Assembly (NCBI GenBank): GCA_012862575.1
Contig: BLSF01000013.1
Span: 496,001 to 560,000 of the forward strand
Reading direction: 5' to 3'
Origin: Parietichytrium sp. I65-24A
Lineage: Eukaryota; Sar; Bigyra; Thraustochytrida; Thraustochytriidae
Length of the DNA stretch: 64,000 bases
Made by a program: the position numbers and the translations under genes. Below the pieces are notes generated by a model, which saw only the letters and a program-made list of their open reading frames with translations, did no database searches and was not told where the DNA came from. The number at the start of each line of letters is the position of its first letter. Within the stretch, counting starts at the first letter, position 1. This document shows positions 6,907 to 61,365 of this stretch, piece by piece.

Positions 6907-7671
6907 TCAGTTCACTGGATAGTAGCGAAGTACCGCGATGGTCAAATGAATTGTATGCCCGGAAGACTTCTCCGTGCTTCGTGGAGCGACATGTTGTGGC
7001 GGGGTAGTTGATTTGATCTCCAAGCTTGCGTCCCTCACGAGCTCAAAGCCGTTTCGCAAACATGCTGCCCGAGCAGAGGGCGAGTCCGTGAGAAAGAACG
7101 CCGGCCGCTCAAACCTCTCGCATTGCTCCCGGACATGCGCTAGCAAGGTGTCGAGCACGAGCTCATCACCTACTTGATCGCGAGCGGTTGATTGAGTAAA
7201 GCTAACAAGGTTTTCCATGCTCAGCCACTCCGAGCTCGCCCAGCGTTCAGGGCATGTATTCAAGCACTCTTCCTCTAGTAAGATCAAGTGGCTTGCTATC
7301 TCAGCAAACCTCACATCCACAAGTAGGTGGTTCGGCATCTTTATTAAAAGAGTATCTGCGAGAACTGCGTCACGGTACTTGTCGAACAGGCTCGGCATCA
7401 GCTCCGTTCCGTAGAGTTCCACCATCCCAACACATTCCCCGTTCTCTACAGCGACCTGCACTGCATCTCCATACTTGGCCGCCACTTGTAGAGCGCGCGG
7501 CGCCACAACTTTCTCTAGCGCTTCCTTTCGCCACTCGTCTTCGCCTTGCAGGATCGCCTTCCACACTTTCGAGTGCGCCAGCTCCGACCCGAGTTTGAGC
7601 CCCACGTCCTGCGCTTCCGCCACCGCTTGGGCGTCTCGTGCGCTCACACAGCGCACCACGCGCTCCGCCAT
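6907..7671 (-). CDS. GNAT-like N-acetyltransferase, copy 2
   Basis: 254 aa, ATG at 7671, 99% identical to the gene at 4644. Relative to that gene it has Gln in FTQSTA (Pro in the first copy) and Ala in LLAHV (Val in the first copy), plus two silent changes. The C-terminal FFLTDSPSARAACLRNGFEL block suggests a GNAT fold, while the N-terminal half shows no recognised motif. It is divergent from the Rpb12-like gene, with 591 bp between the two ATGs. That interval holds the CCAG repeat (7672-7696) and the CT tract and is probably a shared promoter region. Confidence 0.65.
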   Translation of the reverse strand: MAERVVRCVSARDAQAVAEAQDVGLKLGSELAHSKVWKAILQGEDEWRKEALEKVVAPRALQVAAKYGDAVQVAVENGECVGMVELYGTELMPSLFDKYRDAVLADTLLIKMPNHLLVDVRFAEIASHLILLEEECLNTCPERWASSEWLSMENLVSFTQSTARDQVGDELVLDTLLAHVREQCERFERPAFFLTDSPSARAACLRNGFELVRDASLEIKSTTPPQHVAPRSTEKSSGHTIHLTIAVLRYYPVN

Positions 7672-8696: not shown

Positions 8697-10955
8697 TCAA
8701 GCATTCTCATTCACAGGTACAATGTCGTAATTTACAATGAGTTCCGAGCACCACGTAGTCTCATGCAATGCATCGGGCTGTTTTGCAAAAAAGGACGACG
8801 CTCCGATTTCTGGAGCCTTTGCACTATAAAAGAAGGCATCTCGAATCCGGGGTGCCATCGCCACGCCGGGATACGACGTCACGGTTTCCTGCTCACGAAG
8901 CAGGGGCTCCATCAACGTTGTCGACGGATTCACGAAAGGGCCAACGACATCGGCGAAGAGAACTCTGTCGGATGCAAAGGCTTTGTTCTCGATGTTCAGC
9001 ATTTTGTTATCTGCAGAGGCTATTGCCACCAGCTGGCCTCTGGCAATAGCTAAAGGGACCGCTAAATCTACTTCAACATGAATATTTTGGGTTGAAGGGG
9101 GTATTGCGACCACTTGGGGAGCAGATCCCACAATGCGAAACTCCACCCGACCACCGGACTCCATATCCTGCACTGGCTGGACCACCATGATCGTGAACCT
9201 GGTCTCGAAGTTGGAAAATTTGGAAGGCAGCCATCTCACTCGACGCACAAATCCGTTCGAAGGACTTGGGAGCTTATTGAGGACGACGACTTGCTGAGAC
9301 AAACCGCATCGACTAAGCTGACTGAGAATTTTTTTGCCTGCTCCGATTAGTTCGATGCGGGTGCTGTGGGTCATTTTCTCGAACAAATTGGGCGACGAAG
9401 TCCCCAGCTGCATCGTTGCTTCTCCAACGGTCACGCCACCTCGGACAGCATGGGACTGACGCACGTCTCTAGTGCGAACGTGCGCACGTACCTTTTCGAT
9501 TTGGCGCTTGGAGAATTTTGTCCCTGCATACTGTTCTTGGCCAAGGGTTGTGCTGCACCGGTTCTTGAGCCCAACCAAGGATGGCGGCTGCATTAAGAGC
9601 GCGTCGCCCCACGAGCTAAAGGACATACACGTAGCTCGCGGCTGGACGAGACCGAACGCGCGGCCTAACTCATGCGCAACCATGCGAGCTAGAACTGCTG
9701 GGTTCGTTTTCAGTGGATCGATATCCGGGAAGGAAAAGTGATCTTTTCCGCGATTCATCAAGTCTCGCTCAAATCCTTGGCAGGTAACCGAGTGCTCTTT
9801 CCCAGGTATCACTTTTGGGGAATGGGTCGCGCGATGGCAGCTTCCTGTTGAAAATACTATTCTGCCACTGTTATAATCGGCTCCAGTTGGGCCATCAAAG
9901 TAGAATATGGGGAATACCGAGCTCGTATGAACAATGTCCCATGGGGGGAGCATCAAAGGGAATCCAATTGCCCAGTCGAGCAGGGTGGTGGCCACGGTGT
10001 CCTTGGACAGCGTTTTCTCTGGTTGAGTGAGAGTGAGCTTTGGCACCCGCATGAACAGCTCAGCTGTTGGCACGGGAAACACTTTCCGCATCTCAGTCCT
10101 ATACCATTTTACGTACTCTTCCCGGCCAGACTCGTTTCCGACCCGGGTCTGAATCGGTCTTTGCATGTCCACTTGTTCGGCAAGATCTGGCCCTTCCGCA
10201 TAACCAAGGTATATGAGACTCCGTTTGCGACCGAGCATGTACTTCATGCGGAGTTCACGCAAACTTATGCGCAGGTACACGTTGCACTGCGCAAATATAT
10301 CGACAACTTTTTGCATGACGAAAGTCAAAGTTTCGAGGGATAGATCATCGTTGATCAGGCCATATTTATCCTCCATCCTGAACACATTGAGGTCGTACAA
10401 GAGCCGCTCAGAGGCGCGAAAGTGTGGGTCAACTAATTTGACATCAAAGGGCAAGAACTCCTCGCCGGGGTCATTTGCTACTGGAAAGAGTACCATTTTC
10501 TGCGGCCTTGAGTTCGTAAATTGCTCAAACTCTGGCAATTTTAGTCTGTGCATGATATTCTCCTTGCGCGCCCAGTGCCACCCGCGCCCACTCTCGCCGC
10601 TATCCTTAAATGCCACAACTCTAGCCTGAATCTCCTCCGTCATGTCCTGCGACTGGTCCTCGTCCAGCCCAAGTTCCCCCAACGAATCTCTTTCGTTCTC
10701 ATCGGCTCCGACTGTACCTTCCTCGGCCACCGCCACCTGTTGCTTCCCCTCCTCCTCGTCCTCGTCCTCCTCAATCAAATCCACATCTTGGTGAAACAAG
10801 ACGACCTTGGCCGTGGATCCACCTTTGAGAGACAGCGAGCCCAGACCTTCTTGAAACGTCACGAACGCATACGCCACCAGAAACAGCACCAGCAGCGCCC
10901 ACTTGCGAGCCACTCGCCCCTGCCGGCTCGCGGCTGCGGCGGAGGGCTCCTTCAT
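8697..10955 (-). CDS. Type II membrane protein with degenerate metzincin-like protease domain
   Basis: 752 aa from the ATG at 10955 (the longer frame starts at GTG). A short basic N-terminus precedes one hydrophobic segment, WALLVLFLVAYAFVTF (about residues 19-34), giving a signal anchor with the bulk of the protein in the secretory lumen or outside. An acidic stretch follows, then a domain containing VAHELGRAFGL at residues 426-436. Zinc metzincins carry HExxHxxGxxH. Here His428, Glu429 and Gly435 remain, but the second ligand is Arg432 and the third is Gln438. A Cys-Met pair (CMSF) and the end KFSKRQIEKVRAHVR resemble the Met-turn and following helix. The protein is probably catalytically inactive or uses other ligands. 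The C-terminal 250 residues look like beta-rich domains of unknown type. Confidence 0.7.
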   Translation of the reverse strand: MKEPSAAAASRQGRVARKWALLVLFLVAYAFVTFQEGLGSLSLKGGSTAKVVLFHQDVDLIEEDEDEEEGKQQVAVAEEGTVGADENERDSLGELGLDEDQSQDMTEEIQARVVAFKDSGESGRGWHWARKENIMHRLKLPEFEQFTNSRPQKMVLFPVANDPGEEFLPFDVKLVDPHFRASERLLYDLNVFRMEDKYGLINDDLSLETLTFVMQKVVDIFAQCNVYLRISLRELRMKYMLGRKRSLIYLGYAEGPDLAEQVDMQRPIQTRVGNESGREEYVKWYRTEMRKVFPVPTAELFMRVPKLTLTQPEKTLSKDTVATTLLDWAIGFPLMLPPWDIVHTSSVFPIFYFDGPTGADYNSGRIVFSTGSCHRATHSPKVIPGKEHSVTCQGFERDLMNRGKDHFSFPDIDPLKTNPAVLARMVAHELGRAFGLVQPRATCMSFSSWGDALLMQPPSLVGLKNRCSTTLGQEQYAGTKFSKRQIEKVRAHVRTRDVRQSHAVRGGVTVGEATMQLGTSSPNLFEKMTHSTRIELIGAGKKILSQLSRCGLSQQVVVLNKLPSPSNGFVRRVRWLPSKFSNFETRFTIMVVQPVQDMESGGRVEFRIVGSAPQVVAIPPSTQNIHVEVDLAVPLAIARGQLVAIASADNKMLNIENKAFASDRVLFADVVGPFVNPSTTLMEPLLREQETVTSYPGVAMAPRIRDAFFYSAKAPEIGASSFFAKQPDALHETTWCSELIVNYDIVPVNENA

Positions 10956-12248
10956 GCGCACTCCTCGCTTCCTTCGCTCCTTTCTCCTCTCTCTTCTCTT
11001 CTCCTATCCTATCCTGACCTCCTCAGCTGTCAGCTCTCACCTGTCAGCTGCAGCCCTTCTGCGCACGCAGCTCCGACGCCGTCCCCAGAGGGTACCGAGC
11101 GTCTTTTGTTGTCCAGATACAAGTGTCCGCGAGCAAGACACTCACTCACTCGCTCACGCGCCTGCGATTCGCACGCGATTCACAAAGAGTTTCACAATGG
11201 GATTCAACTATTCAACTGGTCAGCACTGAACAGACTGACCAGTGCTCACATATGCTCACATCATGATAGTACCAGGTACCAGGTAGTATGGAATGCCCGC
11301 AGTTATGGTAAGACTGGGTAGGACGGTCGCTATGGTCCGGGGGAAGGTGTTCAGGAATTGTTCACTGTATGGTGTATAGGGTTTAGCGTAGTAATGGGGT
11401 ATATTCGATTTGGTTGTGGACCCTTGTGCAACGTGTAGCGTTTGACTATGATCGGATTCATGCCAGTGCCAATGACTATAAAGTTCTAAATGCTACGTCA
11501 TGATGGTAGCTGAAACATACATTACCATGTCTTAAAGTATGAATAGTGGGGACTCCTATCTTGGTGCATAATACTCTTTATGCCTTCTTTCCCTTAATAG
11601 CATATAATACAGCCCTATAGTGTAGGGGGACTTTTCCTTTACAACTTGGCTACAGAAAGTAGTAATGACACTTAAAGTACAATATCATTCAGCATAGCCA
11701 CGCTATCGGGTCCTACGGCCATAAAATTTTATCCAGATGACGTCACGAATTTTCAAGGAACTACATAAATACTCTAGGACAAGCACGCTGCCGTGAGCAG
11801 ACAAGAAAGTGAAAAGGGGGATGGATGATCTCATCTTTTTCGCCGCTACCTCTCCCTACCAAACAGCTACGCACACCTACCAACCCAGCGATAGGCTCAC
11901 ATCCCCAACCACTACCAAAAATCTTAAGCCACTACCCCTACCACAGACCTTACCACTTCTGGTGAGTCCTTTCAGAGGCACATGCACCCATACTTGGTCC
12001 TACGTTTCCTCTAGACACTCTTAATGCCGCGCAGCATACCGCGTTCATTCCCTGGTCCACAGAGAGAGAGAAAGAGAGAGGGTGCGCGCAGTGTGTACAT
12101 CGCAGCGAGGGTCCTCGGCACTGGTGGTGCAGCACGCAGAGGCGAATCAAGAGAGCGAGAGAGAGTGAGAGAGAGCGGGTTACGCAAAGCGTGGTAGAGA
12201 GCGCGGGGAAGGTGTAAAGTGTCGGGCTTGTGTGGAGGGAGAGGAGAA
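10956..12248. other. Intergenic, no gene recognised
   Basis: This 1.3-kb spacer is AT-richer than the flanking genes around 11380-11780. The sequence from 12060 to 12185 is purine-rich with GAGAG runs, just upstream of the small gene at 12249. Short frames exist on both strands but have no recognisable motif. Confidence 0.5.
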
Positions 12249-12977: not shown

Positions 12978-14936
12978 TTACTGGGCAGCCCTTTTGCGCG
13001 TTTGCCTGAACCAGAGAATCTCCTCCTCATCGATGGCGCGTTCGTCTTCAATGTGCTTGAAAAAGACCTTTGAGTTGCGCGAGTAGTCGTATGTCTTGAG
13101 CTTATCAGGGGGCAAGTGCTCCGGGCCAACCTCCTTGAATCCGCGGTCGATGAACCACCCTTGCGTACGAGTCGTCAGCACAAATAAAGACTTGATCCCG
13201 TCCGAATAAGCCTGTCTCAGACAGTAAGACAAGAGCGCGTTTCCGATGCCTTCTCCGTGCAAAGCCTGCGAAACGGCAACACAAGACATTTCTACTGCAC
13301 CATTACCGTATCTCGGGTCCGGGTAGCGTCGAAGGTGGCAACACGCCAAAATCATCCCTTCGCGCTCGAACACAATAAATTGGTCAATTTCTTTCTCGAT
13401 CTGCTTCGGAGGTCTTGTGATGAGAATGTTTGCTTTCTCCAGAGGCGCTATCAAGCTTTTGATAGCGGGGACGTCGTGGACATGGGCAGGTCGCACACCA
13501 TCGTAGAGGTCTTGGGAGATTAGCAAGCCAATACCGTCTCGGGTGCACAACTCCGATATGATGGAGCCCTGAATGTGGCGACTCACCAAGTGCGCGCGGT
13601 GTACACCACCGGCGACGGCGCGAATGGCGCCTTGCATGTAGTCTAGGAATTGCAACTTCCATTGAGACTTGGGATCCATCTCGGAGTGGCTTACCCTCTC
13701 CTGCCCACCTTGACCCAGTTCGTCCGCGAGTCTCTCAGAAAACCTCCGTGCAACATTGAGCGGGAGATTATGAACAATCGCGCCACCAAGCTTCCGCTTG
13801 TCCACGAGGCCCTCACCATTGTGCAAGAAGACCAGTTTGTTCGCCTGCAGGTCAATGCCCGCCTGTACGGCGACATCCTCCGAGCGACAGTGGTAAATTT
13901 GGCCGCTGCCAGACACACCTAGATGACTCAGCACGACCACATCACCTTGGTCCAGCAGCTGCTGGATCCTGTGCGAGTTCACCTTCTTTACAGTGCCAGT
14001 GTGGAGGTAGTCGATTCCGCCGCGCACGCCAAACGCAATGGCCCGGACAAAGTTCCCCGAGGTCACCGTCACGGCTCCCACACCAGTAGGGGAGTTCATC
14101 AGCCCACGAGTTAGGAGGCTCTCAATGTATAAGCGTACATGGCCAGCAACACTCTGACAGTGGTAGAGAGTCTCAGTATCACACACGCGATTTCCTTGCA
14201 CGAACAAGCTCTTTTTGCCGACTTGCTCAAGCTTGCGGCGAATTTGCGGTCGGCAGCCAGCGACAAGGACGGGTTTGATGCCCAGTGTTTTCAAAAGCAC
14301 AATATCGTGCATAACCTGCTCTGCGTCATCTGACTCCAGCACTTCGCCAGGCACGTGGATCACCACGACGCTTCCGTAGTGCACCGCGATATAAGGCGCC
14401 ATGGCTCGGAAAACTCTGTAACCTATGAGTCGATCTTGTCGGGCGCGGTCACTCTCGACAGTGGACGGGACGACCTCCAAGTTGTCCGTTTGAAATAGTT
14501 CTGCTCTCTTATCGTACATTTTCTTCTGCCTCATCTGGAAATCGCGGTCCATTTCGGTCTCCTCCTCTGCAAAATTTATCTCGGTTCCACTGACGGCGTC
14601 ATGAGGCACAATCCCTTGATGAGGCTCGTCAGATTTCTGCGCCGCCTGAGCAATCTCCAGATTCCGGGCCTCCTCGGCAGCTCTCGCGTTAGCGGAATCT
14701 CTGTCAAAGAATGAGGAGTGAAGCCGGGTGGACTTTTTCGGGTGCTTCATTTCAAAGGACTGAAAAAAGTTCGTCTCTTCCCCGTTCTTCCCGTCATCGC
14801 CCCCACTGCCACTCCCACTGCCGCTTCCCCCGCTGCCGGTACTCAGCCACGCGCTTCCCCATCGCGGAGCCACATTCCGCGCATTCCTCGTTTGCCAAGC
14901 GCAGGTCCGCAGCCTCAGCGCCCGCCGCGTCCACAT
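12978..14936 (-). CDS. Mitochondrial N-acetylglutamate synthase, ArgA type (AAK + GNAT)
   Basis: 652 aa from the ATG at 14936; the longer frame starts with GTG. The enzyme acetylates glutamate with acetyl-CoA, the first step of arginine synthesis. The N-terminus (MWTRRALRLRTCAWQ and onward, many Arg, no acid) looks like a mitochondrial presequence. About residues 170-430 form an amino-acid-kinase domain (VVVIHVPGEVL, GIKPVLVAGCRPQIRRKLE, GSGQIYHCRSEDVA). About 480-640 form a GNAT domain with the acetyl-CoA loop HGEGIGNALL and later VLTTRTQGWFIDRGFKEVG. This AAK-GNAT order is the bacterial ArgA/plant type. The lysine that acetylglutamate kinases need for catalysis is not evident at the start of the kinase domain, as expected for a synthase. 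Confidence 0.9.
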   Translation of the reverse strand: MWTRRALRLRTCAWQTRNARNVAPRWGSAWLSTGSGGSGSGSGSGGDDGKNGEETNFFQSFEMKHPKKSTRLHSSFFDRDSANARAAEEARNLEIAQAAQKSDEPHQGIVPHDAVSGTEINFAEEETEMDRDFQMRQKKMYDKRAELFQTDNLEVVPSTVESDRARQDRLIGYRVFRAMAPYIAVHYGSVVVIHVPGEVLESDDAEQVMHDIVLLKTLGIKPVLVAGCRPQIRRKLEQVGKKSLFVQGNRVCDTETLYHCQSVAGHVRLYIESLLTRGLMNSPTGVGAVTVTSGNFVRAIAFGVRGGIDYLHTGTVKKVNSHRIQQLLDQGDVVVLSHLGVSGSGQIYHCRSEDVAVQAGIDLQANKLVFLHNGEGLVDKRKLGGAIVHNLPLNVARRFSERLADELGQGGQERVSHSEMDPKSQWKLQFLDYMQGAIRAVAGGVHRAHLVSRHIQGSIISELCTRDGIGLLISQDLYDGVRPAHVHDVPAIKSLIAPLEKANILITRPPKQIEKEIDQFIVFEREGMILACCHLRRYPDPRYGNGAVEMSCVAVSQALHGEGIGNALLSYCLRQAYSDGIKSLFVLTTRTQGWFIDRGFKEVGPEHLPPDKLKTYDYSRNSKVFFKHIEDERAIDEEEILWFRQTRKRAAQ

Positions 14937-15827
14937 TGCGGCTCTCGCTTCCCTTCCGCTCGCGCTAAACACTGAGCTTTTGAGTTCTGAGTTCTGCGTT
15001 CTGCGTTCTGCGTTCTGAAAAACTGAATTCTATCTTGCAACCTTGCACGATCTACCGCGTCCCCCGTCCCCCGCGTCCCGCGCGCGCGCGTGAAAGTGAA
15101 AGTGAACAAGCGAAGCTTCGCGAGCTGCTAAGGAGTGCAAGGAGTGCAAGGAGCGGTGACCCCGCACCGTGTACAGCGCGCACACTCGAGCGGCGCGAAC
15201 AGAGAGTACCAGAGATACCAGAGAGTACAGAGTGTACTGCCACCGAGGAACAATACGAACGAAAAGGAACCAGCCAATTTTGATTCTTGCAGCTCGCCTT
15301 TCGGTTCTTTCCTCAAGAACCAAGAACCAAGAACCGGGGGTCCCTACAACTATCCAATAGCCACTCTAGTGCTACTTTAGACTAGAGGGCAGCTTATAGC
15401 ACTACTAGCCAACAAGCAGAGTGCTAACGTTGCCTCCATTATTAGTTAGTAGCAGCTAGGAAGCCCATAACTCGGTGCTAGCATGCACTGTCGTTTAGGG
15501 AGGCGTAGGTGGCGTAGGTAATGCACACGTCGGAATGTGGCGACAGTGGAGACAGTGAGGGATTTTGGTGTGGGGAGCGTTCTTTTTGTTGAGAGTGCGT
15601 TAAAACTTGAAAGGGACCCCGTGCTGCCCCCACATGAAGGAAGAAGGAAGAAGGAGGAAAGAGGAAAGAGGAAGGAAGAAGGAAGAAGGAGGTCGGAGGA
15701 GGCTCCGCTGCGCACGGGGCTGATCTGAGGACTTGGAAGACTGTCCAAAGCGTGAAAAAACAATAGGTTGGCCGGCTTGCAAATCGGCACAGGGCGGGCG
15801 AAGGAGGGTGGAACGTCTGTTGCAGGA
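14937..15827. other. Divergent promoter region with short repeats
   Basis: This spacer lies between the starts of the NAGS and glycosyltransferase-like genes. It contains a heptamer repeat GTTCTG(A/C) at 14984-15017, repeated AGGAGTGCA blocks near 15130-15155, AGAGTACCAGAGATACC blocks near 15200-15235, and a purine tract (GGAAGAAGGAAG) at 15640-15700. No gene is recognised. Confidence 0.5.
14984..15017. repeat. GTTCTGM heptamer tandem repeat
   Basis: About five copies of a 7-bp unit (GTTCTGA then GTTCTGC) lie 50 bp upstream of the NAGS start codon on the non-template side. They could affect the promoter, but no role is known. Confidence 0.75.
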
Positions 15828-17159
15828 ATGTCCTCGTGGGACCCCAGAGTTGTGTCCCTGCTGATAGTGGCCCTGTGCCTTGGGTATTTCACGTCGTCGT
15901 GGCACAGGAATGTGGTGCAGCAAGACTTGCTCTCCGGGGAAGCCGATTCTTCGTTGATGGTACCGCAGAGCGGGGAGTATGAGTTGCGGAGCACCATGCG
16001 AAGACTGTTGGTGGTGACCGAGCTTTCGCCACATCACAAATGGCAGTTTTCACTGCTATTCTTTCCATCGTGGGCCGCGCTCCAAGGCGCCCCGGACGCA
16101 GGGCTCTCTGCAGGGGACCGGTGCTTTAGCGAGAGTTTCTTGGAGGGCGCGTTCGCTATTGAAGAGAAAGGGGTTGCCGTCGACCTCTTCATTGCTTGCG
16201 AGCCAGGGACTTGTGAGCTCGTCCCTGATTCCTGCAAGAGGTGGAGTATGAAGGGGGAACGTGTGTTTGAAATCGAAATAGGTGAATGTTATTGGGAAGA
16301 AGTTCCTCCCAAGGCGGATGAGATATATGCATTTGCACACTCGCTAAACTTCATGAAAGCAGAACCGTTTACGAGTATATTCAAACTGGCTAGGCATGAG
16401 TTCGTGTTGAGATCAGATACCGACGCCGTATTATTTCCTGGTCTGAGATACATGCTTCCAAAGGGCGACGGAGTGTTCGGAAGAGGTTTTAGTGGCACAG
16501 CGGCTTCGTTTCAGATCTTGAGGGAGTTTGCCAAACAGGAAATGGGCCTGAAAGACTTGAATTGGAAAATTGAGGGAATTCAAAGCACTTTTATAATCCA
16601 CAGGACAAAGCTCTTAGCCTTCGTGGAATCGCTAATAAGCTCTACGGCGACATTGTATGAGAAAGCCTTCACCGCAGAGTTTTGCGAGTCTCTTCTGCAC
16701 CGAAAGGATGTCCAGGCACTAGAGCCTGGCAAGGCGAACTACTGCAAATGGCCATATTGGCATCAAGGGGTGTCGAGTTTGTACGGGACTATGATTGCTG
16801 CAAACACAGTCATCAGTAGTCCTGTGAGTACGCAAAAGCTTGACTATGACGCAGCACCAATCGATGGGTATCACCGAAACCTTATGGCCGGTGATATGAT
16901 GCAAAGTCACTTACTACTGCAAAAGTACGACCTGCAAGTAATGCTTAAAGACGCAAAAGTGACCTGTGGCTCTCAAGCGGAGGGTTTGAAGAAGGTGCGT
17001 CCAGATGGGCTGTTCAAGACTTTGGCTTCCGCAGCAGATTTCGATGTGGCGCCTTTCAATTGCTCCGCGACGCCCAGGGAATATGTCTCGGCACTTGTTC
17101 TCAAAACCATACGAACATCTTGCTCGGCACTCATGCTGTACAGATCGAGTGATGTCTAA
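15828..17159 (+). CDS. Type II membrane glycosyltransferase-like protein with DXD motif
   Basis: 443 aa from the first ATG at 15828; the longer frame starts with TTG. One N-terminal hydrophobic segment (VVSLLIVALCLGYFTSSW) indicates a Golgi/ER type II anchor. The lumenal part contains FVLRSDTDAVLFPGL with Asp197-Thr-Asp199, the DXD pattern that binds metal and nucleotide sugar in many glycosyltransferases. Further features are several cysteines that could form disulfides and a YWHQGVSSLYG block. I recall similar protist proteins annotated only as domains of unknown function, so the donor and acceptor sugars are unknown. The single exon is divergent from NAGS. Confidence 0.6.
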   Translation: MSSWDPRVVSLLIVALCLGYFTSSWHRNVVQQDLLSGEADSSLMVPQSGEYELRSTMRRLLVVTELSPHHKWQFSLLFFPSWAALQGAPDAGLSAGDRCFSESFLEGAFAIEEKGVAVDLFIACEPGTCELVPDSCKRWSMKGERVFEIEIGECYWEEVPPKADEIYAFAHSLNFMKAEPFTSIFKLARHEFVLRSDTDAVLFPGLRYMLPKGDGVFGRGFSGTAASFQILREFAKQEMGLKDLNWKIEGIQSTFIIHRTKLLAFVESLISSTATLYEKAFTAEFCESLLHRKDVQALEPGKANYCKWPYWHQGVSSLYGTMIAANTVISSPVSTQKLDYDAAPIDGYHRNLMAGDMMQSHLLLQKYDLQVMLKDAKVTCGSQAEGLKKVRPDGLFKTLASAADFDVAPFNCSATPREYVSALVLKTIRTSCSALMLYRSSDV

Positions 17160-40800: not shown

Positions 40801-43800
40801 ATGGAAGAGGCGCTCAACGCCGTCGTTGGAGGTGAGTAAATTTACTGGTTTTTGACTTTGTCTTTGTCTTTGTCTTTGTCTGCGTTTGTGCGATTGTGCA
40901 GTTGTGCGGTTGTGCGTGGTGGTGCGAATGTTGTTCGGCGGCGGCTGACTTGTTTACATTGGGTGACGTGGTAGGGCGGGACCCCGCAAGAGTGGCGTGG
41001 CTCGGGCTCGGGCAGAATGGGTCGAAATTTGAAGGGGAGCGGATACAGGAGATTTGCGACATGCAAGAATTCACAGGGCTCTTGTCTTTGGACTTGAGCG
41101 GCCACGCTGTTAGTGACGTGGAGAACCTGAGAGTGCTCCGCAATCTGGAGGAGCTCTATGTTCCGCGGAATAGGTTCAAGCGGCTGGAAGGGATCGGCCG
41201 CTTAAGGAGCTTGCGGGTGTTGGACGTCAGTGATAATGCTATTGAGCACATCCCCAAACAAATTGGTTTGTTGACAGAACTGCGGGTGCTTGACATATCC
41301 AACAACCGGCTGGCGTCTATTGGGGAACTGCAGAACCTCAGTCCGTGTACGAGTCTCTTTCGTTTGACACTAAAGCGGAACCCAATCAGCGCGGTGCAGA
41401 ATCTTCATGAGCTTGTGTTGAAATGCTGCGAAACGCTTTTGTATTTCGATGATCAAGAAGTTCAAATAAAAAACCATCGGGGGCCAGGCGCATCTCGATT
41501 CCTAGAAGGTAGCGGGGAAGAGTACAAGGAAAATGTCAGCAGCGATCTAGCACTTCAAACAGAAAGAGCCCGTTACGAGCGTCTCTCTCGAGAAAATGAG
41601 GAATTGAGATCGGAGCTGGAAGCCACTTCGCAACTGTTGGCACGCAAGACCTCAGACTGGGCAGTCGCCGAGGAGCAGCTAAGTAACTTGCAGCAAGAAC
41701 TCGCGTTTCTGAGAATCGATAGCGGCGGCCATGTAAACAAGATGGGAAGCTCGGCGACTGCCAGTAGCCAAGTCGAAGAGAAGGAGCAGTACATGAAACC
41801 TAGCAACCGACAAGGAAGCCGCCATGCAATCGATTTCGAAGATGGGGAGCACACTCTTACCAGCCTCCCACGACAATACAGTGCTGCTCATGATGCTGAC
41901 CTGGAAAAGTCTCTTGAGCAGGTGAACCAGAGTATCAAGCTGAATGGTACCCGAACCGCGGAGAAATTGGAGGTCCTCAGTGTGGATTACAAGGCTGCGA
42001 AAAAGACTTCGGAAACACTCCAAAGTCAACTCGAGTTTGCGTCCGCCACGTTCAATCGTACCAAGCTTGAGCTACAAGCGCTGGAGGTGAGAGAGGCGCA
42101 AAACAACCCTTCTGAACATACTTTATCGCTTCAGTCAACCTTTTCAGCCGAAAACAAAGATACCTTGGAACGAGGTGGGGCGTCAGGGAGATTGCAGATT
42201 GAGAAGCAGCAGGAGCTCTCAGACCTCTCTATGCTTGTGAGCAAACTTCGCAATCTGCGCAGCGTGCTGCGTTCGAATCTGGAGGTTTCACAAGATCTCC
42301 TGGTCCTTCGTACTGAAAAGCTCGTGACGTCTGAAGAGGAGGAAGAAGATGAATTTCGTCGCGGTATGCGACAAGAAAAAACCGACAAATTGGAAGCGCA
42401 ATTCAGCAGCTTAGCAATTAGTGCGGCCTCTATGGCAAACGATATTAGCGGCGTTCTCTCGTCGAGCGACAGATTGCGAGACGCTTTACCCGATCTGGCG
42501 TTCATTGAGATGCAGTCTGAGGATGTTGGGAACACACTTGACGCGTCTTTTATGTCCCAGGGATCTGCATTTGATGCTTCCATCACCCGCCTTTCAGAGA
42601 CTGTGTTGAAGGTCAAAGAGCAGGATTCAAGGGTTAAGGATTGCCTCGATAGCTGCCTGCAAAGAATTACTCAGGTGGAGTCTGCAATCGACATGATGAA
42701 CGTGGCCTCAATTGACAAGCCCGAGCCGCGCTCAAACCTTCTTGCAAAGCTTGACGAACTTGGCTCCCCGGTAGGTAATGGGGCCTCCATACGTCTCGAT
42801 TTGCTGCGTGCCTCTGCTGAGCAGGAGGGCCAGATTGTGAATCGATTGCAGGAGGAGCTCAAGGCTTCCAGTTTTCGCATTAGGGAGGTTCAGATAGCAA
42901 TTCTTAAACTAAAGAGCGAGTCTTGGCGAACGGAGGCGATGTTGCGCTCAAAAATGTGCGACATATACGCGAGAGCAGTTTCCACCAAAAATTCGGCATT
43001 AGAGGCTTGCACGAGAACAATGTCAAGGCTGGCTACTGACCCAAAGGATGATTATCGATCTCCTCAGTACGCTGATGATCGTGCAAGGTCTGGTAGCGGA
43101 GCGATCGCAACACCGCTTCAATCTCCGCAACCGGTAGGCGCACTTCTTAGTCCGGGCTTTCGACTTTCTTCCCCTCGCGATCAGAGTCAGTCTCCCAGCT
43201 TTGGTATATCTTCTCCCACGCCCCAAATGGAGTTCAACAATTTAAACAATGTGTCAGAGCAAAAAGCTCGTGCTTGCCGCCGACAAATCTACGAGGAATT
43301 GGTTGAATCTGAGACCAAGTACGTGTCGGAGCTGCAAAGACTCGTGAATTTGATCCTGTTGCCGATGAGGAGAAGATGCCTCCTGACGCCTCGGGATCTT
43401 CAGATCGTTTGTAGCAACTTTCACGACATCCTCCTGGTGCATGAGACGCTGCAAGGCGACATTGAGGGTCAGCGAGACGCACTCACGATTCTGAGCTCTT
43501 TCCAGAAACGCCTAGGCATCCTTCAAGAGTACCAGTCGTACTTTGACCAGCTTCCTGCGTCTATAGCTCTCTTTGACGTCCGTCGAGGAGAGGTGTCGGC
43601 TCTTGCAAGCTTCATCAAATCAGTAGCTTCCGCAGAAAATCTTCAGTCGGATGCCACCTCTCTTTGGCTTCTCCCTCTTCGGCGGATACTGCACTATGAG
43701 AAAACCTTCGCAAGGCTGTTGGCGTTGAATACTTCGAGCGCAAGCTCCGCCATTCGTACCAAAGTCTCCATGCTTGCTTCTGCTGTCACGAATTTGCTGC

Positions 43801-45284
43801 AAGGAGTTTGCTCGGAGGAGAAGAGGATCTTGGAGCACGCAAATACGATTGAGCACGTTCAAAGGTTGCTTCCGGGCCACTCTCTGCTCGGTTCGTTGGA
43901 GAAAGTTTGGCTTTCCGATGCACGCGTATATTGTGAGCAGCGAAGGGTACTTGCCCACGTTCAGACCGTGCAGACGATGATTCTCATACCTGGCAAGAAA
44001 GCTGCAACATTGAAGAAAGGCGTGTGTACTGTTTTCACGGACTTTCTTGTCCTGTCCGCGTTTCCGAACAAATGGCGTGCAACGTTTCCAGGAGAGACCG
44101 CGAAGCTCCGTGCCTGTTGTGTGATGAGACTAAAGGATGGTTTGTCAAGCTCGCGGCCTTTTGCTACGGAGAGCGAAGGTGCCTATATTGGTTTGCAGCT
44201 ATGCTGTTCTCCGTTTGCCTACCGAGGTCGCCACCATCTGAGGGAAGACGATGACGGTAGCACGGTTGACGCGTCAGAAGACGCAAGGCAAGTGGAGGCC
44301 ATCTTGCAGTTTGAAGACCCTAACATCGCAGAGAGGCTTCATCTGGCCATCGAGGAGCAGACTCGATCAAGACCCATTCGCCAGCCATCTCCTCAGCGTG
44401 GCACCAACGTCACTCGGTTAAATTCGTCGAATCGGCTGAAACAAACATCAGACTCCTTGGCGCGGTCGTCCACTCCGGGAGATGTTGCGTTGAGCCGCAC
44501 CTCTGAAAAGGACGATCTGTCGTATGCTCCAAAATACCCTGGCACTGATATGAAACGAAGGAGAGAGCTAGCAAAACAGCTCCGCGAGTCGCGAAATGCA
44601 TGGCAGCGGCCTGAGCTCGAAAATGTGGATTCCAAGATGGCTCGAGAGCGCATCCGAATCCGGGATGGTCACCCACTAGCAGCAGAAACCTTGTGCAATG
44701 AGGAAGCATTTCAATTGAGGTCGTCTAGTACCGGTCCGACAAACTCTGGTCCAACCGCAAGTGATGGAGATTCAGAATGGGCCCGTTTATCCCAGGCTGG
44801 TTCGCGGCAGGATTTAATGGTGACGCCCATCAAGGTTCCACCCTCTCCAAGTGCTCGAGCGCTGAGCAAAACGAGAGTTTCAACCAGAAAAACCGATCAA
44901 CTAGGATTCGGAAGCTCATCCAAGCTCGAGCGAAACAAAGGTGTTCGACAGAGAAAGCTACCCAGTCCAAAGAAGAAGCCACAACCTCGGGGAAGCAAGA
45001 GCTTGACACCACCGCCCTCAAACCAGGGAACAGAGAATGATGTCGGGGAAGAGGAGGTCTACTTTGATCAGTATTTCGCCATTCCAGAATCTTCGTTGCG
45101 GCAACCAGATCTTTCCATCTTCAAAGCTCCGGCGAGGCGCGGCCCCCAAGTTGGAGAAGGTGTAGGATACCAGGCCAAGCGTCTGATTGGCCTCGGCTCT
45201 GAGACTAGTGAGTATATTAAGGAAGCGACCCGACATGAAGTGGACTTTTACAACAGGCTCGAACCTGGGGGTGCTGAGCAATGA
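40801..45284 (+). CDS. LRR - coiled coil - RhoGEF (DH-PH) protein, one intron
   Basis: Exon 1 is 40801-40831 (10 codons plus 1 base), the intron 40832-40974 (GTGAGT...GGTAG, 143 bp, with four TTTGTC repeats) and exon 2 40975-45284; 1,446 aa. Another acceptor (TGTGCAG at 40901) was excluded because it leads to a stop. Residues about 45-190 are leucine-rich repeats (LLSLDLSGHAVSDVENLRVL, LRVLDISNNRLASIGELQNL), and about 200-760 are coiled coil and disorder. About 770-1000 form a Dbl-homology domain, starting RRQIYEELVESETKYVSELQ with QEYQSYFDQLP. About 1010-1132 form a PH-like domain (GVCTVFTDFLVLSAF) ending in a helix. The DH domain would load GTP on Rho/Rac/Cdc42 GTPases. The tail is disordered and basic. 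Confidence 0.85.
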
Positions 45285-54346: not shown

Positions 54347-54881
54347 CTCTCTCCAGCGGTCCTCAGGGTCTCATGCCGTCCCACACGCGGGACCAGCGTC
54401 CCTTTAAGTTTTCCTTCCTTCTCTCTCTTTCCTCTTTCCTCCTTCCTTCTTCCCACAGGGCTTCCTCCACGTATGTCCTTGCTACAAGCTAGCCGTTGAA
54501 CACGCACTCTTGAAGTTCAAGTTCAAGTTCAAAATCAACTTCCAAGTCCAAGTCATTTCTCACAACTACTACAGTATACCGTAGATTAGGTTACACGTTA
54601 TACTCTCAAGTTGATACTGCCGCCGCGTACGTAACGGGTAGCAGCGGGTTAAGAACGGGTAAGGGTATGCGGAACGCAGTGGAAGGCGGGTTTCGGCGGC
54701 ACCCTCCCGGACTTGTGGTGGAAGGTGTTTTGTGTGTGTGAGTGAGTGAGTGGGTTGTTGTTAATAACGGAAGCGGGGGGAAAGAGAGCGGACCGGGAAG
54801 TGTACGCGGGGACAGTTTGAATTTGGAATATTGGAGTATTGGAAGAGCGGAAGAGGAAGAGAAGGGGACAGGGAGAAGAAA
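54275..54881. other. Divergent promoter region with TTTC microsatellite
   Basis: This lies between the IQ and METTL21-like starts. It has a TTTC tetramer run (54308-54346, running into CT to 54352), AAGTTCAAGTTC units near 54510-54560 and GAGTGAGTGAGTG at 54740-54752. No gene is recognised. Confidence 0.55.
54308..54352. repeat. (TTTC)n microsatellite
   Basis: About nine TTTC units followed by CTCTCTC, located 34 bases upstream of the IQ-protein start codon (on its template-distal side). Confidence 0.9.
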
Positions 54882-55708
54882 ATGGAGCCAGTGGTGGGAG
54901 GAAGCGACGGGGAGGAGGAGGAGGACGACTATGGTTTTTTCAACCCGGATATGTTCACTTCACACGTGTCGCTGGAGGACGGAGAGTTTGAGTTTGGGGA
55001 CCTGCGCGTGAAGCTAGAATTTGTACATAACTCGAATCAGCTGGTGGACAAGTTCGTGTCTAGAGTGGTGTGGCCATCAGCAGAAGAGCTGTGTAGATAC
55101 TTTGTTCAGAACCCAGATGTAGTCAAAGGCAAGAGGATTTTGGAGCTTGGCAGCGGAACAGGGCTGTGCGGAATCACCATGGCTCTCCTCGGCGCGGAAA
55201 CTGTCGTCATGACTGACTATAATGACGAGTCGGTGAACCTTTTGCAGAAGAATGTCGAGAAAAATAATGTTCAAGACCGCTGCTCCTGTCACACGTTGAG
55301 CTGGGGCGATAAGGAGCGAGCAGAAGAAATTATTCTCCAGCGCGGAGGGGTGCCCTTTGATGTAGTAGTTGGAACTGATGTTGTGTAAGTTTTCCTAATT
55401 TCTAAACGGCCTTGTTTGTGTTGAAGTATCCACTAACCGAAGCACCGGAACTTTTCATGCTATGCAGATATGAGCCAGAGTGTGTAAAGCCTCTATTAAC
55501 TTCAGCGATGCACTTTATGAAGTCTCCAGACGGAATCTTCTACCTCGCAAACCACACACATAGATACGGCAGGCTGGAAACTTGTGTTAAAGAGACCGCT
55601 CAGAACATGAAGCTAGTAGAGACCGTCATGCCTTCCGTCACCGGCCCTGATGGCCGTATCGACATGTCTACTTTCAACCTTCCGACCGAATCTTCATCAA
55701 CGCTGTAA
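54882..55708 (+). CDS. METTL21-type protein-lysine methyltransferase, one intron
   Basis: Exon 1 is 54882-55384, the intron 55385-55467 (GTAAGT...TGCAG, 83 bp) and exon 2 55468-55708; 247 aa. The junction restores VVVGTDVVYEPECVKPLL. Residues about 86-98 are the SAM-binding motif I (ILELGSGTGLCGI), followed by TVVMTDYND (acidic ribose-binding residue). The VVWPSAEELCRYF block before motif I and the DVVY motif after it are those of family-16 seven-beta-strand methyltransferases (METTL21/EEF-KMT). These trimethylate lysines in Hsp70, eEF1A or similar proteins. Which substrate applies here cannot be told. Confidence 0.85.
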
Positions 55709-56297: not shown

Positions 56298-59200
56298 ATG
56301 GCAGCAGTGCTGCGGGACTACACTCGCGAGGGCAAGGACCAGGAAGATCGCGATGTGGCTTCGTTTGTGAAGGCGATGCACTTGTTCGGGCAGACGCTGA
56401 CTTGCGCAATTTGTCAGTCGTTCGTCAAGTAAGTTTAGCTTGCGTTGTTTAAGAGATGTTTGAGGTGGTGCTGTCGCGCTGTTGCTGAGCGGAATTGTGT
56501 GTTCTGGATTGCAGAAACCCGCACACGACCAAGTGCTTGCACTCCTTTTGCAAAGACTGCTTGCAGCGCAGTCTGAGTCTAAGCGAATCGTGTCCGCAGT
56601 GCCGAAGACCTTGTAAGGTAAGTCGACCTGGGTTGTGCTGGATTCGTTCCTCTTGTTTTCCGTTTTTTTTAAATGAAGGAAGGTTCTCTGACCTCCTGAA
56701 TGAAATTGATGTGTAGAAACGGGAGATGCGATCAGACGATAAGATTCTTCGACTGCTCAATCTTTTCAAAACACTCTGTCCAAGCAAGAAGAAAAATAAC
56801 GCTCCGGAGGAGAAGGACCCCGCCGACGTTCCTGTACCCAAAGAGACGGACATGTGCTTGACCCAAGTGGAGTCACTATCCCAGTTGGTGGAAGGGTTTG
56901 GCGCAAATCCAGACCGTATTTTCCCGAAAGAAAGAACAGTGCAGACGCTTCACCATCTCTCTCCAGAGGAGTGGTCAGAATTTCGCAGAAATCGAGCACT
57001 TGTGCTTGAGAAGAGTTTGCAAGGTCTCATGGACGACTCGGAAGACGATGAAGATGAAGGTGAGGAGGTCATCGTCGAACGAAAAGAACCAAGTTCCTCG
57101 CCAAAGCCAGCTAAAGCCGGCGCCCTCGCAAGGCCTGGCCCCGGACCGTCTCCCGTAGCGAGCAAGAGTCTCGAATCAACGTTGGATGAGGCTTCGCTTT
57201 CGGGTTCAGAGGAGCATAGTGGCGAGACCAAAACTCCCAACAAAGAGCCTGGAGCGGCGGAAACTCCAATCCATGGCCGCTCCTCCTTAATTTCGCGATC
57301 TGCTCGAGCCGAGTACAAAACGCCGAGGTCCACCTTGAGCAAGTCAACACCAAAGACTCTCGTGCTCTCAACAGGGTCGTCTTGTGCCGAGTCTTCGGTG
57401 CTGGAATCCCCGGCAGCGTCTCTACGTGGATCCGCGAGCAAGCCCCGTTCGGCATTGAAGCAGTCATCTTCATCGGCCTCCAGAGATGAAACGGGTAAAG
57501 GGCGAAAGCGAGCTCACTTCCAACTTGTAAACGAGCCGCCCTGCAGGCTTTTTCAATCCGAGGAGGATATTAGCGGAGAATCATCGGAAATTGCACTTCC
57601 TGGCGGATCAACGAAGGTCACTTCGTCAAGTAGACCGCGTGCGAATAGCGATGGGGCACAAAGCGTGGAGTCCCTCGTGTCAATTCCGTCCAAGAAGTGC
57701 GACTCTCCCGTCCTTAATATAGGGGACTGCGCGAGAAAAGCTGTCAAGACAAAGACGGGCGCCATGGGGCCCCCTCAAGACGGGGCGATTGACCTCAAGC
57801 GGAAGAAGGTTGTTGCGCCGAAAGACCATCCTGACCCCCAAACTTTGACGGAGAAGTCGAGGCCAAGCCTCAGTGAACTCCCATCTGAGCGACATAAAAA
57901 TGTGTGTTCTGACGGTGCACAAGGTCGAGAATCCATCGAAAGCGCTAAAACCCCTGCCAGCCCCGAAAGCGCAGACGGTAGCAGCTCCGAGAGCGCCGAT
58001 GGGAACGGAGAAGAAGAAGCCGAAGAGCGGCGCTTCACGGTTGGTGACTTGGTGACAGTCAGCCGGCGAATGCAAGCTGGGGTCAACAAGCCCGGTGGCG
58101 CGGCTTTGATTTCTAAAGTGAATGGGAACGGGACATACAATGTCAACTATCACGTTGTAGGTGGGCGTGAAAAGAACATTCATTGGCGCAACATACTCCT
58201 GGGGGTGAATCTTGATGCTAGCAGCTTTTTTGGATCGGGGGTAAAACAACCTCCCGCGGAAAGCGGAATGGCTGTATTTGGCTCACAAAATCGTCCTGCA
58301 AGACGAAGTGCTCATAGGGAGCTCTTTGATCCTTCAGATTTTTACACGGTAGCAGACCAGCGAAAGGCTCTGACAGCGAAGAAAACAAGAAAAGAACTTG
58401 ACCAAAAGAAGCGCCGAGCCTCGGAGCCTGCGCTGGCCAGTGAGGATGAGCCGAGCACAGCCGCAAAAGCTCGAACCAAGGCCAAACGAGCGAGACGCAG
58501 AAAGGTGACTGCCGAGGAGGCGCTACCACTATCGCAGCCTACACAGTCTACTCAAGATGACCCAGAGCCGCTTTCAAACTCTCAGCCAACCTCGTCGCCG
58601 CCGGTCGTGCTTTTTACGGGGTACTTTGGAAAAGATCCTGAAAAGGCCAAATTGCAGATGGCGGAGTATGTGGCCAAGTTGGGTGGTATCATCGAGGAGA
58701 GCGACGTGGAGGTTGCCACGCACATATTGGCACCTCGGGATCGAAAGATGACAAGTCAGCAAATAGCCCGATCTCGAACACTCAAGTACGTCCGAGCGCT
58801 TTCTCTTGGCAAATGGATTCTAGACACAAAGTGGCTAAGAGACAGTGCTCGGGCCGGGTCTTGGCTGAAAGAGGATCCGTATGAGATTGAAGGTGATCTC
58901 AAGTCTTGCCATATTGGCACCGGTGGTCCACGAAAAAGCCGTCTCGTAGCGGAAGCTTTCCGCGAGAATCCTGCAAACGCCACAAAGCGTATTTTCGACG
59001 GCCTCACGGTGTGCATGTGTGGGAGATTTCCTCCTCCGCACCTGCCAAAGCAAGACCTTGGAGATCTTGCAGAGGCGGGGGGCGCCACCATCTTGAGCTC
59101 AGTGAAAGATTTAGGACTTGCTGCGCGGTCAGCTGAGCGACCAGTCATTGGGATCTGTCAGGCCTCTGATCTCCTGAGTGACAGCGAAAGAAATCACATT

Positions 59201-59335
59201 AAGGAACTTAAGGCGAAAGGCACGCTATGCCTCGTTTCATCTCAGTGGCTTTTGAATAGCATAAGCACATATTCACTCCAAAGTCCGTCGGACTATGTGC
59301 TCGAGATTGACGACACAACTGCGGCCACCGAATGA
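56298..59335 (+). CDS. RING - Tudor-like - tandem BRCT protein (BRCA1/BARD1-like), two introns
   Basis: Exons are 56298-56428, 56515-56617 and 56717-59335. The introns are 56429-56514 (GTAAGT...TGCAG) and 56618-56716 (GTAAGT...GTGTAG). The joined protein has 950 aa. The RING finger is built across the first intron: C36, C39, C51, H53, C56, C59, C70 and C73, in the C3HC4 order. KREMRSDDKILRLLNLFKTL follows, as in BRCA1 and BARD1. A long disordered middle follows. A Tudor/chromo-like module lies near 518-573 (FTVGDLVTVSRRM, KPGGAALISKVNGNGTYNVNY). Two BRCT repeats lie near 706-805 (VVLFTGYFGKDPEKAKLQM) and 834-950 (GTLCLVSSQWLLNSI). RING plus tandem BRCT implies a DNA-damage ubiquitin ligase reading phosphoproteins. 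Confidence 0.85.
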
Positions 59336-59459: not shown

Positions 59460-60125
59460 TTACTTTACATCTTCAGACCTCATCTTGTGCGACTTTGCGA
59501 GATTCGACTTGTTGGCAGGGTCACGCATCACCCGAAGGTAAAGTTCATTTTGCATGCGGTTCTGCTTGGCCACGCGCGGAGCCGCATGCATCTTGGTCTG
59601 CTGGCCGCATCGAAACGCAACAAACCCATCCTCCAGCTTGGTCCCGGGCGCAAGCCGGGCTGTGGTGCCTACCACACAGCCCTCTCCCACCCGGCAAGTT
59701 TCGTCTACGCAGCTCCTCACCTCGAACACATTAGAACTACCTATCGAGGGCGAAGACACCGTGCAGCCAACTTGAAACACATTCCAGTCTCCTATTGTCA
59801 TCGGCCGCGCGTTCGGCTGCTCAGGATTCCTGCTCTCGGAGCACACAGTCAGTCTTCACCTCTTCACTTGCTCAATTCTACACTTCTTCCATTGTCCCCT
59901 CCTCCACAGCGCCCAGCAAGGCCCGTTTCCCCGTTTCCCAACTCACTCGATGGTCACCAGCTCCTCAACCACGTTTCCTTTCCCCAGCGTAATCGGCCCC
60001 CCGAGCGCGCGCAGGGTGCAGTGTGGCCCCACCACGCAGTCTTTGCCCACGCGGATGGGATGCGTGCCTTCGAACACCACGTCTGCGCACACCAGCGCGC
60101 CGTCCTCGATCACTACTTCGCCCAT
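59460..60125 (-). CDS. DCTN6: Dynactin subunit 6 (p27, DCTN6), one intron
   Basis: Exon 1 is 59947-60125 (ATG at 60125), the intron 59830-59946 (GTGAGT...GAGCAG, 117 bp) and exon 2 59460-59829; 182 aa. The join reads GKGNVVEELVTIE then NPEQPNARPMTIGDWNVFQVGC. Imperfect hexapeptide repeats ([LIV]-G-x4) are visible throughout (IRVGKDCVVGPHCTLRALGG, VGEGCVVGTTARLAPGT), indicating a left-handed beta helix. The PMTIGxxNVFxVGC stretch is specific to DCTN6. In dynactin, p27 sits with p25 at the pointed end of the Arp1 filament and helps recruit cargo to dynein. The length suits the family (about 190). Confidence 0.92.
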
Positions 60126-61365
60126 GGCGCCAGCGACACCGCAATTTGGAGATGCACAATGGGGCCCCCTAGCGAAGTGGGCATACTTTGTGTGGAAGCA
60201 TCTATGCTATCTTTGACTCTTGGAAAAAGTTTCGGTGTTTTTGGGGTAGAGCTGGATACGTGAAACGATAGAAGGCAGGTGGTGGGATTCAGACCATCTT
60301 GATCGTGATGGAAAACGTGCAATGTGAAACGTGGAAAGAGTTCAGGACACACGCAATCATCAATCAAAGGTTGGCGGCGGTCCCTCTTGGTAATTGAGAT
60401 CATTGAGTGCCTTCTTCGGATGTGGAGATGGGACAGTCGTGTCGAACGCAGACGAAACGCTCTGTGCAACGTTCGGCTTGAAGCTGCCAATGATTGTGAA
60501 AATGCATACCATGCGGCTGCACAAGAGGCACCAGAGGTCGCAAGTGCCAGAGCGAATTGGCGCATTGACTGTTGGCACAGTACTCAGCACTACCCTGCAG
60601 TCTTTTCGATTTGTCAGTTGGAGAAAGAAATCTGGGCCTGAAAATGCCTGAAATGGCTGAATTCTGAAGCCATCATTTGGTGTCCGACGCGATATTCGAG
60701 CTTGTGTCTTGGCTGCTGTGACAATACAACAGATAGCCTGTGCCAACAGTTCCAATCAGAGGTTTCTGAAAAGCTTCTAGCTAGCTAGACGCACATGTCG
60801 AGAGTTTAGCAGCTGCTGGGGTCGAAAGCGTTTGAATGCCGACAGAGATTCCTCTGATGAGTATTTCTCATCGTCGCACCTTTCCAAGTCGTACGGGGCG
60901 ACCCTTGAGTTTGGCGGTCTCCTTTGTCACCGAGGGAGGCCAAGAAGAGTTTGGACAGCATTCAGCTCAGCTTCCGTTTCTGGAGGCTGTTCTCAGACCT
61001 TTCTTTTGCGGTCTCGAGCCCTTTCCCCCTCGCCAGCTCTTCTCGAAGAATGGTTTTCAAGTGTTTTCAATGAGCAAGTCGGACACATGACACTTCAAAT
61101 TCTCCATTGGTTGATTTGATTGATTCTTAAGAAACGAATCATGATACACCAAACCTCCGTTGCGCACCAAGCCATGCAGAGTTTGCGCCGCCGTGAAACA
61201 ATCGAACCCAAGTCTGACATTTGTGAATTGCGAGACGGCAAACTCCGAATGCCACAGTCAACACATCGCGACACGAAGTTGAGTGAGAGGGAGAGAATTT
61301 GGGTGTAAAAGTGTGTCATTTTGTAAAGACGCGGCAATACTTAAATACCACAAAAGCGAAGAACA
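60126..61365. other. Intergenic with weak small ORFs
   Basis: About 1.2 kb between DCTN6 and the orphan ORF at 61366. One short minus-strand frame (60360-60512) has gene-like codon use and is listed separately. A plus-strand frame from 60838 to 61090 (83 codons, starting MPTEIPLMSIS) has an ATG but no recognisable feature. TTGATTTGATTGATT repeats lie at 61112-61126. Confidence 0.4.
60360..60512 (-). CDS. Possible small protein or C-terminal exon (50 codons)
   Basis: ATG at 60512, stop at 60360. A short hydrophobic start (MVCIFTIIGSFKP) is followed by a polar, Pro-rich end (PHPKKALNDLNYQEGPPP). About 60% of third positions are G/C, as in confident genes nearby, and the frame stays open upstream to about 60755 without another ATG. 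It may be the last exon of an unresolved gene or chance. No family is recognised. Confidence 0.2.
   Translation of the reverse strand: MVCIFTIIGSFKPNVAQSVSSAFDTTVPSPHPKKALNDLNYQEGPPPTFD

Follow-up and report, generated by a model that had tools for sequence, protein, structure and literature searches.

A three-exon gene in the 64,000-nucleotide stretch of Parietichytrium sp. I65-24A DNA analysed here (the window) encodes a predicted protein that is BRCA1-type by its architecture and by its BRCT domains. Between its N-terminal RING and its C-terminal tandem BRCTs lies a short block of predicted strands that we favour, by a modest margin over doubt, as a Tudor-type barrel within a BRCA1-type ligase; that this block is a true chromatin-mark reader seems improbable. 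The elements of the gene, in window coordinates and with the evidence in brackets, are as follows:

56298..59335, + strand: gene of three exons encoding a 950-aa protein with RING, block and tandem BRCTs (splicing, splice-pair scan, codon usage)
56298..56428, + strand: exon 1, with the start codon, the N-terminus and the first RING half
56429..56514, + strand: intron 1, GTAAGT...CAG, inside the RING (splice-pair scan)
56515..56617, + strand: exon 2, with the second RING half
56618..56716, + strand: intron 2, GTAAGT...TAG (splice-pair scan)
56717..59335, + strand: exon 3, with the linker, the middle block, the BRCTs and the stop
56403..56602, + strand: C3HC4 RING, aa 36-73, split by intron 1 (Pfam and PDB RING matches)
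58034..58201, + strand: block between RING and BRCTs, aa 518-573, with predicted strands and a possible likeness to Tudor (composition, AlphaFold, Foldseek)
58604..58882, + strand: BRCT 1, roughly aa 708-800, containing T712-G713 and R765-T-L-K768 (Pfam, PDB)
58988..59302, + strand: BRCT 2, about aa 836-940 (Pfam, PDB)

At the level of sequence, the three-exon RING-BRCT gene is confirmed as real. Once 56298-56428, 56515-56617 and 56717-59335 are spliced, the frame is open over 950 codons, from the ATG at 56298 to the last nucleotide of the stop at 59335, and translation of the spliced exons agrees exactly, in coordinates and residues, with the three-exon model and complete C3HC4 RING of the initial annotation, including the strings named there (KREMRSDDKILRLLNLF at aa 79, FTVGDLV at 518 and NGNGTYNVNY at 547). 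Both introns, of 86 and 99 nt, respectively, follow the GT-AG rule with a GTAAGT donor. For intron 1, the frame stays open with four of 60 donor/acceptor pairs (a count over the ranges as taken that includes skipped pairs less than 50 nt apart), and two of the three open alternatives lose the RING spacing solely via a C2-C3 gap of 7 or 8 residues; because the proposed pair is the only one of the four that restores the C3HC4 spacing, intron 1 is well supported independently of RNA. For intron 2, 18 of 126 pairs are frame-open and 13 of these 18 retain the RING, since the RING ends upstream of this intron; with so many open pairs the exact join of exons 2 and 3 is therefore less certain. Codon usage, scored after training on six long open reading frames of the window (taken from stop to stop and predicted only), gives its highest value in the predicted frame for each of the five parts tested. 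Across the RING exons the score is 0.085 in the predicted frame versus 0.024 in one other, slightly positive frame, and in both introns all three frames score below zero.

It is highly improbable that the RING exons and the BRCT exon represent two adjacent genes wrongly joined. An in-frame ATG (56726, M82) lies near the start of exon 3, and translation continued from exon 2 into the unspliced intron runs to the very end of that intron before meeting a stop; two separate products are therefore conceivable, and the many frame-open alternatives of intron 2 enter a model built from sequence rather than transcripts. Nevertheless, the two introns share the GTAAGT donor and the frame continues past both, codon usage marks the exons as coding and all three frames of intron 2 as non-coding, and an N-terminal RING with C-terminal BRCA1-like BRCTs is the known order. 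A tblastn search of the window with the RING and BRCT regions (E up to 1) returned nothing besides the gene itself.

Upstream of the gene on the same strand, 54768-55388 (+) encodes a Methyltransf_16 lysine methyltransferase (E 3e-20), which the open frame at 55406-55708 may continue, and two open stretches at 59460-60206 (-) converge on the BRCA1-type gene, with weak matches of hexapeptide-repeat type (best E 1.4e-5, below the curated cut-off) that perhaps, as a guess, denote a dynactin-type subunit. Further away, a single 1482-aa frame at 40836-45284 (+) combines leucine-rich repeats near its N-terminus with a RhoGEF domain in its middle (E 1.2e-16), an ORF at 15756-17159 (+) contains DUF7164 (E 6.7e-23), and a protein encoded at 12978-15029 (-) unites an amino-acid kinase and a GNAT domain as in N-acetylglutamate synthase, a name that we infer. 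A 768-aa ORF at 8697-11003 (-) has no Pfam match at E up to 0.01. Four tRNA-Pro(TGG) genes lie on one strand between 2473 and 7671, where a segment with one such tRNA gene and a 254-aa ORF is apparently tandem-duplicated, with about 2.26 kb between copies and an identity of 95-99% in three pieces. The duplicated ORF copies (4644-5408 and 6907-7671, minus strand) differ by two residues as judged by eye, and a Pfam scan of the second copy, with the stop left off, finds no family up to E 10.

The RING retains all eight ligands (C36, C39, C51, H53, C56, C59, C70 and C73) and is recognized as Pfam zf-C3HC4_2 over aa 36-73, above the curated cut-off (E 4.7e-11); R74, which follows the last RING cysteine, occupies what we take to be the linchpin position of active RINGs. 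Against PDB sequences, the 112-aa RING region finds UHRF2 (1e-10), RAG1 (1.1e-10), RING1B (5.8e-10) and BRCA1 (8.8e-9), the top match being a two-RING RING1B/BMI1 chimera whose value of 1e-15 is summed over both RINGs. In this search, in which short RINGs are rarely decisive, the domain is not closer to BRCA1 than to other RINGs. A specifically BRCA1-like RING was consequently rejected: because UHRF2, RAG1 and RING1B outscore BRCA1, the RING supports a RING ligase and does not, alone, support BRCA1.

Both members of the tandem BRCT pair claimed in the initial annotation are found by Pfam above the curated cut-offs, BRCT 1 as PF00533 (E 5.1e-5, aa 716-788) and BRCT 2 as PF16589 (E 5.3e-7, best stretch aa 837-938). 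The 250-aa BRCT region has 43 distinct matches among PDB sequences at E up to 1, the best 18 of which are BRCA1 entries (E 3.3e-12 to 1.1e-9), followed by MCPH1 (microcephalin) at 1.8e-6 and BARD1 at 1e-3; a predicted pair nearer to BRCA1 than to BARD1 is thus supported. The pocket motif RTLKY is present at aa 765-769 and a T-G pair at 712-713, and we take T712-G713 and R765-T-L-K768 to correspond to the BRCA1 phosphate pocket S1655-G1656, R1699 and K1702. The earlier label 'BRCA1/BARD1-like' therefore holds for the combination of RING and tandem BRCTs, with the BRCTs leaning to BRCA1, but not for the RING on its own.

Animal and plant BRCA1 share with the protein the N-terminal C3HC4 RING, the long middle and the C-terminal tandem BRCTs, and it is to BRCA1 that the BRCT pair is closest by sequence, with the RTLKY pocket motif retained; the protein differs in being only 950 aa long and in a RING that is not specifically BRCA1-like. 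Plant BRCA1 and BARD1 have an extended PHD finger before the BRCTs, whereas a plant-type PHD was not found here by Pfam, which over the whole protein reports neither a PHD nor an Ank family at E up to 10. No BRCA1 is known to have a distinct block like aa 518-573. BARD1 likewise has a front RING and tandem BRCTs at its end, with a chromatin-reading module in the middle in the case of animal BARD1, but ankyrin repeats are missing here and the match of the BRCTs to BARD1 is only at E 1e-3. 53BP1, Crb2 and Rad9 carry tandem Tudors near tandem BRCTs and are not known to have a RING. If the block is Tudor-like, the protein would resemble them in placing a Tudor ahead of tandem BRCTs within a protein of repair type; it differs in its RING, in its one block about 135 residues upstream of the BRCTs and in the lack of aromatics in the first cage region of that block.

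Excerpts of published work provide the wider context: the ankyrin and BRCT modules of animal BARD1 read H4K20me0 and H2AK15ub (PMC10639053); one survey dates BRCA1 to early eukaryotes and BARD1 to a later time before the plant split (PMC3969565); BRCA1 went undetected in six diatom data sets (PMC4647503); the excerpted part of a plant BRCT survey reports BRCA1 and BARD1 and leaves Tudor unmentioned (PMC11014961); and Tudor domains occur in some DNMT5b enzymes of microeukaryotes (PMC9998398). Among the literature matches listed, which are biased towards open access, no RING-Tudor-BRCT protein is described in a protist. A query for BRCT, Tudor and stramenopile together found nothing, and motif strings retrieved only papers that are unrelated by title and the start of the abstract.

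Searches for relatives covered viral and prokaryotic collections, in which misses say little about a eukaryote. None of the pattern matches was confirmed by tblastn, whether for the block in viral contigs (17), exon 3 in viral contigs (133), an alignment of the block with two hand-written motif rows in genome and viral contigs (538 and 47) or the BRCT region in genome contigs (38). In the same collections a DNA pattern for W-P-G-x-N-K found no stretch; the seven stretches found with a DNA pattern for G-x-N-K-P-G-G were rejected, as only 10-13 residues match where the pattern lies (best E 0.06). In a family search through a viral locus, Tudor_3 occurred in none of 14 control genomes.

About 630 residues, mostly poor in hydrophobic residues, separate the RING from the BRCTs, and the middle block stands out in composition. 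In 40-aa segments starting at aa 521, 541 and 561 the hydrophobic fraction is 0.33-0.38, compared with 0.05-0.25 in 24 of the 28 linker segments of equal length outside the block (starts 81-501 and 581-681), and the fraction of P, E, S, K and Q is just 0.12-0.15 in the segments starting at 521 and 541. Four early segments (starts 81, 121, 141 and 161) are also raised, at 0.28-0.33, and with 0.33 in aa 121-160 the block is not the sole hydrophobic stretch of the linker. This second raised stretch (aa 121-186; window 56843-57040, +), with for example LTQVESLSQLVEGF and LSPEEWSEFRRNRALVLEKSLQGLM, matches no Pfam family.

The initial annotation had described the block as Tudor/chromo-like. Profile searches, in which HMMER filters drop most weak matches, do not bear this out: the block, searched as aa 518-573, matches no Pfam family at E up to 10, including Tudor, chromo, PWWP and Agenet, and no NCBIfam family at the same threshold, while the PHF20 Tudor, as a control in the same Pfam library, scores E 4.9e-14. 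Single-sequence phmmer against the PDB also finds no Tudor up to E 10, and a Tudor identity by profile was rejected as unproven for want of a family match. What stands of the description is weak structural support. For a fold whose full form is a five-strand SH3-like barrel, AlphaFold run without an alignment predicts, at low confidence, four strands for a 78-aa construct (mean pLDDT 45) and three for a trimmed 64-aa construct (pLDDT 57.7, the other four models of that run being at 38.6-46.4), with 21 residues of the trimmed model at pLDDT 70-90 and 23 of 64 below 50. In Foldseek, the trimmed model has Tudor or PWWP entries in each of its first nine places (TDRD2/TDRKH Tudor, a PWWP, PHF20 Tudor 2, another Tudor and Sgf29), the best at E 0.38 and none significant. 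By a count of titles, Tudor, PWWP, chromo-type or Agenet entries make up 25 of the 50 best of 105 matches; two of the 25 (HTATIP) were classed by the protein that they represent, and several are further entries for a protein already counted. Among the matches, three Sgf29 chains exceed 500 residues, with the aligned part not shown. For the 78-aa model, seven of the ten best are PWWP, Tudor or pseudo-chromo, the rest being HERC2 and two SH3 domains. Neither model has a match at E up to 0.001, the best values being 0.18 (78-aa) and 0.38 (trimmed). On the earlier proposal's own terms, under which a Tudor claim falls when no profile or structure match is significant, the claim thus fails, though by tools that are weak on a single sequence.

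PHF20 Tudor 2, a member of Pfam Tudor_3, aligns locally to the block with a score of 42 over ALISKVNGNGTYNVN...NIH (reached by three of 5000 block shuffles) and stands at ranks 6-7 among the Foldseek matches. When 111 segments of the protein are aligned to PHF20 Tudor 2, the five that score best all contain this stretch; for PHF20L1 the score is 35, reached by 15 of 5000 shuffles. PHF20 came first in a profile search (E 0.027) only once two hand-written motif rows had been added, and because those rows put it first the comparison is pre-selected and serves as a lead, not as an independent test. PHF20 Tudor 2 differs from the block in having W, F and Y ahead of the second strand, and there is no significant profile match between them. 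In PHF20 these aromatics precede the AKVTAV strand, an alignment made by eye, whereas the 16 residues before the corresponding ALISKV strand of the block (TVSRRMQAGVNKPGGA) contain none; across the 64-aa construct, F, W and Y occur only as F518, Y552, Y556 and W568. A classical methyl-lysine cage is therefore unlikely, and with it a predicted role as a classical methyl-lysine reader. A link to the Mind bomb SH3 repeat (SH3_15) is weak and runs via a hand-written motif consensus for stramenopile chromatin proteins (E 0.0087, below the curated cut-off); the block itself does not match the SH3_15 family in Pfam.

When the block is searched as a single sequence against the PDB (phmmer), the top match is of a different kind, namely half of HINT1, a HIT protein (E 0.0094 for a chain with N replacing one HIT histidine). 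The next eleven chains are at E 0.036-0.066, and HINT-type proteins account for 17 of the 18 matches up to E 10. The pairwise score of 71, compared with 42 for PHF20, is the strongest raw score obtained and is equalled by none of 5000 shuffles, and Y-N-V-N-Y-H-V-V-G-G-R-E of the block resembles Y-H-V-H-L-H-V-L-G-G-R-Q. An origin of the block by decay from one half of a HIT domain of HINT or aprataxin type is nevertheless very unlikely. It has N-V-N-Y-H in place of the H-x-H-x-H motif, with asparagine at two of three HIT histidines; the best single stretch of the top match, at E 0.052, is near chance across several searches. Nothing corresponds to the N-terminal half of the HIT fold, in whose place the sequence is poor in hydrophobic residues, and Pfam HIT is silent on the block at E up to 10, while a HINT1 stretch of equal extent scores 8.7e-11. 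The models place strands where the HIT fold presumably has a helix, and HIT proteins are absent from the 50 best fold matches of each model. A relationship to HINT1 was rejected, chance or convergence being likelier given the changed histidines, the missing half of the fold and the silence of Pfam HIT.

Two further readings concern what the block would do. A true Tudor-family methyl-lysine reader, through which the ligase would read a histone methyl mark in the manner of 53BP1 and Crb2, would agree with the Tudor domains at the top Foldseek ranks of the trimmed model, with the better-scoring of the two aligned Tudors, PHF20 Tudor 2, belonging to Tudor_3, the family of the Crb2 Tudor, and with Crb2 and 53BP1 being tandem-BRCT repair proteins; it is unlikely all the same, as TVSRRMQAGVNKPGGA has no aromatic where PHF20 has W, F and Y, as Y552, Y556 and W568 all lie downstream of it and as a profile match is absent. 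The earlier suggestion of a chromatin-mark reader is accordingly weaker still than that of a Tudor fold. Rather unlikely, though to be kept in mind, is an ordered-looking non-barrel stretch or docking peptide in a plain BRCA1-type RING-BRCT protein with a long linker: the sharp change in composition at the block and the strands predicted in both AlphaFold constructs speak against it, while all profile and structure matches are non-significant, pLDDT is below 50 in over a third of the trimmed construct and searches of the viral and prokaryotic collections gave no relatives to show conservation.

In our preferred reading, that of a Tudor-type barrel, the RING, probably paired with another RING via flanking helices, would recruit an E2 and, close to DNA damage, may ubiquitinate a target. 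Docking on a phosphorylated partner would fall to the BRCT pair, a role suggested because T712-G713 and R765-T-L-K768 match the BRCA1 pocket. The block, most likely a small SH3-like beta barrel, may touch chromatin, histone or nucleic acid as a further and weak point of contact, made without the classical aromatic cage for methyl-lysine. A single protist protein that joins a BRCA1-type ligase to a Tudor-type module as in 53BP1 and Crb2, and that both reads and ubiquitinates chromatin in place of the ankyrin repeats of BARD1 in animals and the PHD finger in plants, is a doubtful extension of this reading. If the block is merely linker, the protein would be an ordinary new BRCA1 homologue; a protist BRCA1-type protein with a middle module of its own would provide an independent test of the chromatin-reading requirement of the ligase.
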